64,000 nucleotides of DNA, taken from NCBI RefSeq assembly GCF_003590835.1, contig NZ_QYUQ01000002.1, positions 4,154,001 to 4,218,000 of the forward strand, read 5' to 3'. The notes under the pieces are model-generated. The model saw only the letters and a program-made list of their open reading frames with translations, did not search any database and was not told the DNA's origin. Of the stretch, positions 529 through 2,949 are shown piece after piece. Position numbers and translations under genes: made by a program. The stretch comes from Noviherbaspirillum sedimenti. Its GTDB lineage: Bacteria > Pseudomonadota > Gammaproteobacteria > Burkholderiales > Burkholderiaceae_D. Every line of letters begins with the position of its first letter. Positions within the stretch are counted from its first letter, which is position 1.

Positions 529-576
529 GCGATCACGCCATCTCCGCTCAGGTTAATCATTTTGTCAGGAAATGGA

Positions 577-589
577 ATGGACGCCTCCC
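577..589 (+). repeat. Left subterminal inverted repeat of the IS1111-group element
   Basis: The sequence ATGGACGCCTCCC is the exact reverse complement of 1998-2010. It begins three bases inside the predicted left end, as expected for subterminal repeats of the IS1111 group. Confidence 0.85.
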
Positions 590-714
590 CCCGCAAGGGT
601 ACCGATGAAGTGAGTCGGAGGGATAAGTAGAGAAGAGGGGTTCTCACAGCCCAACGGCATCAAATGTGCCAAAGTGGAAGTTCTGAACAAACCACTTGAG
701 GGAGGAGAACCCAA

Positions 715-1737
715 ATGAAGCATAGCGTATATGGCGTTGATGTGGCAAAGCGCGTGTTCCAAGTGCATTGCGTGGATATGGAGACGGGCGAAATCACCAG
801 CAAGCAGATCAAGCGTGCTGGATTTTTGGAGCATTTCGTCAACCGTGCGCCGTGCCTGATTGGCATGGAAGCCTGCGGCGGTGCCCAGCATTGGGCAAGG
901 CGGCTGATGGAGATGGGGCACCAGGTGAAGCTAATGCCAGGCAAAGCGGTCAAGGCATTCGTACACGGCAACAAGAACGACGTGGCTGATGCAAGGGCGA
1001 TCTGGATGGCGGTGCAGCAGCCTGGCGTCAAGGCAGTTGCGGTCAAGACGGAGGCGCAACAGGCGGTACTGGCGCTGCATCGAATGCGGCAGCAACTGGT
1101 GAAGTTCCGCACGATGCAAAGCAACGGGTTGCGCGGCTTGCTGACGGAATACGGCGAAGTGATGGCGGTTGGCCGAGCTGCTTTGGACCGGGCCATGAGC
1201 GATGTACTGGCAAGATTGAGTGATCGATTGCCGGCGGTGTTGATCGACACATTGCGCGAGCAATGGGAAATGCTAGGCAAGCTCGACCAGCAGATCGCCG
1301 CGATCGAGCAGCGGCTGCTGGCGTGGCTGAAGCAAGACAAGGCATGCAAGACGATTGCCGAGATTCCCGGTGTCGGCTTGCTGACGGCAACGGCGGCGGT
1401 GGCGACGATGGGCGATGCCAAAGCATTCAAGTCGGGACGCGAGTTCGCTGCCTGGCTCGGGCTGGCACCAGGCCAAACGGGTACGGGCGGCCGGGTGCGG
1501 CTTCTGGGGATCAGCAAGCGTGGCGACACGTACTTGCGCACGCTGCTGATTCACGGTGCCCGAACGGTGCTCACGCATGCGAAGGAGCCAAGCGCGTGGG
1601 TGCAAGAGATCAGCAAGCGCCGGCCGCCGAATGTGGTGACGGTGGCGCTGGCCAACAAGATGGCACGGACGATCTGGGCGTTGTTGGCGCATGATCGGCA
1701 GTATGGAAGAAGTTATGTGAGCGTCAAGCCGGTATGA
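715..1737 (+). CDS. IS110-family transposase (DEDD recombinase)
   Basis: This 340-residue protein is of normal length for the family. The N-terminal RuvC-like DEDD domain shows Asp9 (GVDVAKRVF), Glu52 (GMEACGG) and Asp89/Asp92 (KNDVADARA). The C-terminal Transposase_20 region shows IPGVGLLTATAAVATMGD and LLGISKRGDTYLRTLLIHGA. A GGAGGAG ribosome-binding site precedes the ATG. IS110 enzymes work as RNA-guided recombinases that assemble on a bridge RNA, and in this group that RNA comes from the downstream end. One oddity is that the usual HSTGG or HSSGG motif of the Tnp domain reads TGTGG here, so the normally conserved serine position appears to be glycine. Full length and without frameshift. 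Confidence 0.95.
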   Translation: MKHSVYGVDVAKRVFQVHCVDMETGEITSKQIKRAGFLEHFVNRAPCLIGMEACGGAQHWARRLMEMGHQVKLMPGKAVKAFVHGNKNDVADARAIWMAVQQPGVKAVAVKTEAQQAVLALHRMRQQLVKFRTMQSNGLRGLLTEYGEVMAVGRAALDRAMSDVLARLSDRLPAVLIDTLREQWEMLGKLDQQIAAIEQRLLAWLKQDKACKTIAEIPGVGLLTATAAVATMGDAKAFKSGREFAAWLGLAPGQTGTGGRVRLLGISKRGDTYLRTLLIHGARTVLTHAKEPSAWVQEISKRRPPNVVTVALANKMARTIWALLAHDRQYGRSYVSVKPV

Positions 1738-1779
1738 ACCGGCTGACATTGAAATCAACCAGTTTGTAACAAAGGATGG

Positions 1780-1960
1780 GCACGTCGAAAGGTTGCGCAA
1801 GGTACAAAGTGTGATGGCAAACAGGTCAGACCGGGACTCACGAAGCCTGAATGATTTTCTGGGCTAACAGCCCGTCAAGGAAATGAGGCGTGGGTCAGCG
1901 GATTCCATTAAGGCCAGCAGGTTCGACCTGCAACAAGGCCGGATATAAAACTGCAGCCTA
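1780..1960 (+). ncRNA. Predicted bridge RNA of the IS110/IS1111 element
   Basis: Two stem-internal-loop-hairpin units can be drawn. In the first, stem 1845-1848/1886-1889 and hairpin 1861-1865/1869-1873 enclose a loop. Its 5' side ATGATTT (1851-1857) is complementary to the right target half at 2015-2021, and its 3' side AGGAAAT (1878-1884) equals the left target half at 567-573. In the second, stem 1912-1915/1937-1940 plus hairpin 1917-1922/1926-1931 cap a loop. Its 5' side ATTCCATT (1902-1909) is complementary to the element's left end at 571-578, and its 3' side ATATAAAA (1943-1950) equals the right end at 2009-2016. This matches the target-binding and donor-binding loops of bridge RNAs. 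The transcript ends are guesses. Confidence 0.75.
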
Positions 1961-1997
1961 GCCTGTCCAACAGCACACGATGAATTCCTTGGCAAAC

Positions 1998-2010
1998 GGG
2001 AGGCGTCCAT
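1998..2010 (-). repeat. Right subterminal inverted repeat of the IS1111-group element
   Basis: GGGAGGCGTCCAT is the exact reverse complement of 577-589. Its GGGAGG (1998-2003) is also the only Shine-Dalgarno-like sequence now upstream of etfA, at a long spacing of 16 bases. Confidence 0.85.
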
Positions 2011-2019
2011 ATAAAAATC

Positions 2020-2949
<930 letters not shown>

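Follow-up and report, generated by a model that had tools for sequence, protein, structure and literature searches.

Bridge RNAs, whose target is short and contiguous, are under development as programmable recombinases. The IS1111-attC elements combine an IS1111 transposase with a short recognised site, which is the integron attC and not a gene start. For the IS1111 group, the main text of PMC11187229 describes DEDD transposases of 330-350 aa with a C-terminal PF02371 domain and the motif GL-P----S(t)G, and an RNA in which the 5' arm is complementary to the top strand and the 3' arm matches, an order that is reversed in IS110. In the main text of PMC11208160 the subterminal inverted repeats of IS1111 elements are given as 7-17 bp, and IS621 is described with a guide order that is the reverse of that of IS1111 and with the core taking part in all four pairings.

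In the present work, we examine an element located in front of an etfA gene, at the start of a window of 64,000 nucleotides (the whole stretch of DNA that was analysed). Comparison with relatives upholds the original prediction that the element belongs to the IS1111 group and has a bridge RNA with two target and two donor guides, and that these guides explain the choice of the etfA Shine-Dalgarno (SD) sequence plus start codon as the insertion site. What goes beyond that prediction is the siting of about half of the relatives at an SD sequence and start codon, and an elastic spacing of the half-sites.

The element and its site in front of etfA

The first 2 kb of the window comprise the end of an etfB-like gene, a small ORF, the IS1111-group element and etfA (Table 1). 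The transposase scores 341.5 bits against NF033542 ('IS110 family RNA-guided transposase'; cutoff 140), and its sequence GLAPGQTGTG at residue 249 is the IS1111 motif. Its 340 aa lie within the range for this group, the C-terminal domain is PF02371, and profiles and motif point to the DEDD type. The nearest solved structures by sequence are the transposases of ISCro4 (E 7e-7) and IS621 (E 1e-5). The longer non-coding region (1738-1997) lies 3' of the transposase gene, as in IS1111 elements, with about 140 nt upstream, and the exact 13-bp subterminal repeats fall within the IS1111 range. Target and element share a core base X, which corresponds to A570 at the left end and A2014 at the right, and the exact border of the element is ambiguous within an A run.

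Table 1. Positions in the window of the element, its predicted RNA and the etfA insertion site.
Feature	Position	Strand	Basis or remark
IS1111-group element	571..2013	+	second genomic copy; empty etfA paralog site
Left subterminal inverted repeat ATGGACGCCTCCC	577..589	+	exact 13-bp inverted repeat
Right subterminal inverted repeat GGGAGGCGTCCAT	1998..2010	+	exact 13-bp inverted repeat
IS110/IS1111-family DEDD transposase, 340 aa, intact	715..1737	+	NF033542, PF01548, PF02371, motif positions
Target-binding unit: outer stem, lower stem, internal loop, capped hairpin	1835..1896	+	covariation, 59 homologs
Right target guide (RTG) ATGATTTT	1851..1858	+	pairs with 2014-2021
Left target guide (LTG) AGGA + core A	1878..1882	+	equals 567-571
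Donor-binding unit: short stem, internal loop, capped hairpin	1898..1954	+	covariation, 59 homologs; outer two pairs invariant
Left donor guide (LDG) ATTCCATT	1902..1909	+	complementary to element left end 571-578
Right donor guide (RDG) ATATAAAA	1943..1950	+	equals element right end 2009-2016
Left target half, Shine-Dalgarno AGGA of etfA	567..570	+	empty paralog site L195
Right target half, AAAATC + etfA ATG	2014..2022	+	empty paralog site L195
etfA, target gene	2020..2949	+	PF01012, PF00766

The empty site (TCAGGAAAATCATG) is seen in the closest etfA paralog, L195, which lacks the element. It reads TTTTGTCAGGAAAATCATGACTGC, where the window reads TTTTGTCAGGA, the element and then AAAATCATGACCGC; the insertion is thus clean, between Shine-Dalgarno and start codon. 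A second copy of the element on the same chromosome is identical at 1442 of 1456 bases (99%), with the match confined to 567-2022. It is inserted between AAAGGA and ATAATCATG of another gene, the product of which has a weak PEP-CTERM match.

Since about 1.4 kb now separates the SD sequence from the etfA start, translation of the interrupted copy is probably reduced, which nine further etfA genes may make tolerable. Ten etfA genes are found in the genome (L189, L195, L198, L200 and L202-L207), with proteins 90-100% identical to that of the window. This is an unusual multiplication of ETF genes, and at several of the loci the upstream DNA resembles that of the window's copy, including the end of the same small ORF.

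Two candidate roles for the right end in expression of the captured gene were rejected. For a promoter, TTGGCA and TATAAA are found 15 bp apart, and boxes with at least 4/6 matches at that spacing occur in 46 of the 121 clade sites introduced below. The GGGAGG of the inverted repeat, considered as a replacement SD, lies about 16 nt from the ATG, with GGGACGCGTTCAT there in 36 of 121 sites. Read by eye, the displaced SD AGGA (567-570) is now 6 nt 5' of a left-end ATG (577) that opens a 17-codon ORF, possibly a captured leader peptide.

Fold and guides of the predicted bridge RNA

The guide matches of the original prediction are exact for both donor guides, the left one being the reverse complement of the element's left end and the right one identical to its right end (Table 1). 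The same holds for ATGATTT (1851-1857), complementary to 2015-2021, where the pairing extends to 1858/2014, that is, over 8 nt. AGGAAAT (1878-1884) is identical to 567-573 as had been stated, but the target DNA within it is confined to 567-570 (AGGA), the remainder being the element end. The arrangement had also been likened to that of IS110 bridge RNAs. This is correct for the positions of the guides, but with the top-strand complement (RTG, 1851-1858) 5' of the bottom-strand match (LTG, 1878-1882), their order is that of IS1111 and the reverse of that in IS110 and IS621.

The proposed two-unit structure, which consists of six helices and 27 pairs, is well borne out by the 59 homologs examined, in which 97.0% of 1593 cells are paired. 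Both sides are changed in 118 cells; shuffling gives 40 such cells, and sliding the partner 4-12. Eleven pairs are changed on both sides, while the shuffled mean is 7.3 and a value as high is reached in 2 of 500 shuffles. A lack of covariation in the two outer stems had been named as evidence against the prediction, and this is not what the homologs show: six of the seven outer-stem pairs of the target unit are changed on both sides. The outer stem of the donor unit (helix 4) has two invariant GC pairs, with no variation among the 59 homologs, and is uninformative. Helix 2, the lower stem, lacks its lowest pair in 21 of the 59.

It is important to point out that the predicted RNA structure rests on covariation, the single-sequence fold being weak. 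When the single sequence is folded by minimum energy, the result is unremarkable (z -1.42) and does not have an open target loop, and some folds pair both target arms together; minimum-energy folding was therefore discarded as proof of structure. An Rfam search gave no meaningful match, with one at E 0.069 lying far under the gathering score.

The relatives were taken from the best 80 of 316 loci in named genomes, 6 virus contigs, two plasmid records (from 598 with a match) and further genomes. In a first set, 72 of 90 loci had a recognisable repeat, with 70 left after removal of duplicates and 67 having full flanks. A larger set, containing the first, was obtained from 224 profile hits, of which 200 were near full length, 141 distinct, 133 with a repeat and 127 usable. 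Leaving out the more distant L014, L149, L180, L247, L256 and L259 gives 121 clade sites, representing 90 distinct guide pairs.

The right ends align well among the homologs, and the RNA outside the target arms is mostly conserved or covarying, while the arms themselves vary from element to element, tracking the flanks. The original prediction had named the same loop bases at unrelated sites as evidence against it; the homologs do not keep the loop bases, and the loops change with the insertion sites. Over 52 distinct guide pairs, agreement with the own flank is 5.08 of 6 for the LTG, versus 2.03 with permuted flanks (z 17), and 6.87 of 9 for the RTG, versus 3.89 (z 18.5); in these scores twelve left ends are one base longer and out of register, being in register in the 94-site profile below. 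With all 67 sites, the observed guide sums were reached by 0 of 20,000 permutations. When the spacing is left free, the RTG scores 5.71 of 7 in 95 guide pairs, compared to 3.62 for permuted flanks (highest permutation 3.95).

Outward from X, the LTG matches in 98, 96, 90, 96, 76 and 53% of 94 sites; the stretch that it reads is X plus the preceding four to five bases. Nine of the 94 sites with both flanks miss an LTG match of at least 4/6 or an RTG match of at least 5/7. On the donor side, the RDG agrees with its own end at 6.62 of 7 positions versus 5.76 permuted (permuted maximum 5.97; 121 sites). For the LDG the values are 6.31 versus 5.97 (permuted maximum 6.22), above all 20,000 permutations but less sharp than for the RDG. 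Where right ends depart from ATATA (ATAGA, ATGTA, ATACA, ATATT), the guide has the same departure in 18 of 19 sites; at L211 and L104 the donor guide departs though the element end does not. Taken together, these alignments show guides that follow their sites and a predicted structure that covaries.

Gene starts as targets and the spacing of the right guide

At 58 of the 127 sites, X is followed 4-10 nt later by the ATG of an ORF (60 codons, or 40 running to the end of the available DNA), compared to 4.2% of 25,400 random flank positions. When an SD-like sequence on the left is also demanded, the count is 46 of the 99 sites with a left flank versus 0.49% of random positions. The other 69 of the 127 sites fail the start-codon test. 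From the first set, 34 such ORFs were listed and 30 were run against Pfam, where 22 matched a family at E 0.001, 19 of them above the Pfam cutoff; the families are thiolase, ExbD, GST, PmbA/TldD, ABC transporters, several integrases, transposases and phage proteins. Plasmid-borne relatives of the genes at L055 and L056 have the same ATG behind an SD-like sequence, without the element.

On a transposase tree of 66 rows (L127 left out), with 'start' scored as an ATG-ORF or as CATG with an SD (35 of 66), start targeting needs 12 changes, at least 9 of them forced, compared to a shuffled mean of 21.9. It is thus clustered on the tree, yet gained or lost repeatedly; other guides aim elsewhere, so the clade has undergone repeated redirection. 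A genome-wide count was also considered as proof of start specificity, but was dropped as weak. In the element's own genome there are 138 occurrences of AGGA-N(0-5)-ATCATG and 6 of its reverse, but a control pattern with ATGATC is likewise more frequent than its reverse (80 vs 8), and of the first 30 occurrences of each pattern 18 and 17 open a 60-codon ORF, versus 369 of 900 random ATGs.

The preference for gene starts could in principle be a matter of survivorship, with insertions being widespread and those between SD and ATG persisting since the reading frame is spared. The non-start relatives L111, L116 and L118, which sit at hairpin-like and likewise harmless-looking sequences, would fit this. 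However, the address is written in the RNA, as the guide stretch facing the start codon contains AT at 56 of the 58 start sites versus 32 of the 69 others. Although selection may still have chosen AT-bearing guides, we consider survivorship unlikely and targeting of gene starts by the guides the better reading.

Some of the other sites have recognisable features. L111, L116 and L118 adjoin inverted repeats (e.g. AAGGCCAAAAGGCCT at L116), possibly transcription terminators as targets. At L225, L229 and L284 (L223 is similar), a GTAGAC...GTCTAC inverted repeat is found at the right junction; its first three letters are the element's own end, and the target is possibly the end of another mobile element. 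Further IS1111-type elements with 42% identity, L009 and L010 (G000:C2:155211-156221 and 2546604-2547614), have GTTAGG or GTTAAA on the right and TTGA on the left, flanks that may be attC-like sites.

We now turn to the spacing of the right guide. The RTG starts at one RNA position, 1851 in the window, with 10% complementarity one base outside and 99% at the first base. From this anchored end to the core, the complementarity is 99, 98, 97, 96, 92 and 85%, then 77, 65 and 37%, in the 115 of 121 sites with at least 5/7 matches, a selection that inflates the inner values. The paired block lies 2, 3, 4 and 5 nt from X in 40, 44, 24 and 6 of these sites, respectively, and 0 nt in one. Opposite X, the RTG has a complementary base in 53% of 114 sites, while X is matched by the LTG in 98% of 94 and is identical in RDG and element end in 119 of 121; the core is thus not part of all four pairings clade-wide, as it is in IS621. 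For the copy in the window, the pairing of the RTG does extend to X.

With the spacing free, the RTG block is matched at 5-6 of 6 positions in 112 of 121 sites, versus 8.5% for unrelated flanks given the same freedom. An RTG of fixed register was rejected: no single spacing scores above 3.1 of 7 (127 sites), compared to 5.7 with free spacing (95 guide pairs) and 3.6 for permuted flanks with free spacing. Nineteen guide pairs are found at two or more sites (50 sites), and seven of these groups hold well-matched sites at different spacings. Thirteen sites are off-mode, and their score is 5.15 of 6 when their own spacing is used and 0.77 with the usual one of their group, while unrelated flanks at the best of six spacings reach 3.28. 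Since the same RNA arms are used at different spacings, this is elasticity and not variation in guide length. As an example, four Aromatoleum anaerobium copies precede AAACGTCATG, ACTGTCATG, AGCACGTCATG and AATGTCATG.

Another option considered was that the RNA needs a fixed register and that later small indels or imprecise joining cause the variation. At the Burkholderia site L275, the one wide-spacing site with a usable element-free counterpart, a 90%-identical relative reads AAAAGGAGTGCGACATG, with one G fewer between SD and start, which would agree with this option but leaves that site ambiguous by one base. Empty counterparts were moreover found for few sites; for the wide Aromatoleum site L091, the best relative is 73% identical and has another leader. 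On the other hand, the insertion is clean, with the joining exact and unaltered and the target not duplicated, when judged from the empty sequences at L195 and at L366, a 94%-identical element-free relative of the second Aromatoleum copy (thiolase site L090) that reads AACAAAGGACTGTCATG. In addition, pairing is near-perfect at each of the differing spacings in the seven same-RNA groups, and at start sites the spacing tracks the position of the start codon. We therefore regard later indels or imprecise joining as quite improbable, and favor an elastic right guide.

These comparisons show that the right-guide spacing varies among sites, and they indicate that the register of the RTG to the crossover is not fixed, a property invisible from one copy. 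The elasticity would then act during recombination, which suggests an address looser than that described for RNA-guided DNA recombinases.

Proposed mechanism and comparison with known systems

In the mechanism that we propose, the right end of the IS1111 element would encode a bridge RNA (seekRNA). Within the target loop, the 3' arm would read from the Shine-Dalgarno side through the crossover base, and the 5' arm the bases just before and within the start codon, while the donor loop would read both element ends as abutting in a circular intermediate. The transposase would join both DNAs at the shared core (X, usually A or G, with A next in the donor), resulting in landing between SD and ATG, in the orientation of the gene and without target duplication. 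Across the clade, the RTG would be anchored on the RNA and its distance to the crossover would vary by a few nucleotides, such that one guide pair could serve several translation starts. Transcription of the RNA, its binding by the transposase, the circular donor and the catalysis are steps that we infer from the sequences.

We consider this bridge-RNA explanation as a whole, including the elastic right guide, to be very probable. An alternative in which the right end serves the transposase as a terminator or cis-regulatory RNA, with the guide matches as by-products of shared end sequence, can be given almost no weight: the shortness and conservation of donor guides and element ends and the weak single-sequence fold would fit it, but in 95 distinct guide pairs the target guides agree with host DNA beyond the element, far above permuted flanks, and a terminator scan of 540-2060 found no plus-strand site.

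With less confidence, we think it somewhat probable that this IS1111 branch uses the translation start as a landing pad, by means of a two-part SD/start-codon address with an elastic gap, where the left and donor guides set the register and the right guide slides a few bases, so that one RNA serves many genes in many bacteria. The gap suits the natural variation in SD-to-start distance, and the comparison suggests that such an address is useful because hosts offer many of these sites and the gap suits their spread. Guides for SD and ATG would explain how a site is found in each new host and why the element lands in the orientation of the gene. Should a variable gap be tolerated by IS1111 RNAs, the IS1111 and IS110 groups would follow different target rules, and specificity estimates for IS1111 tools would need extra freedom; the 121 clade sites with their 90 guide pairs are a ready test set.

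Neither start-codon targets nor a variable gap was found in a search of open-licence full texts, preprints being outside this search, or in passages of PMC11208160, PMC11187229 and PMC9208149. In the main texts, 'start codon' is absent from PMC11208160 and occurs once in PMC11187229, in the methods, and 'spacing' is absent from both; as this covers main texts, Extended Data Fig. 10 of PMC11208160 or the supplement of PMC11187229 could already show gaps.

Like the bridge RNA of IS110/IS621 (Durrant et al. 2024, main text of PMC11208160), the RNA described here has target and donor loops with left and right guides, and RNA-DNA covariation. IS621 differs, according to the same text, in its reversed guide order, in the location of the RNA in the left end and in its 11-bp target; discontiguous pairing is described there on the donor side, and no description of variable spacing was found in that text. 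The group, the RNA, its location and the guide order have already been described for IS1111 in the main text on the seekRNAs of ISEc11, ISPa11 and ISKpn4 (Siddiquee et al. 2024, PMC11187229). In ISEc11 the target matches overlap, according to that text, whereas here the strongest pairing of the RTG is 2-5 nt off the crossover, with a gap that varies. The present element shares with these seekRNA systems the downstream non-coding region, the subterminal inverted repeats, the top-strand complement located 5' of the bottom-strand match, and the natural redirection between relatives.
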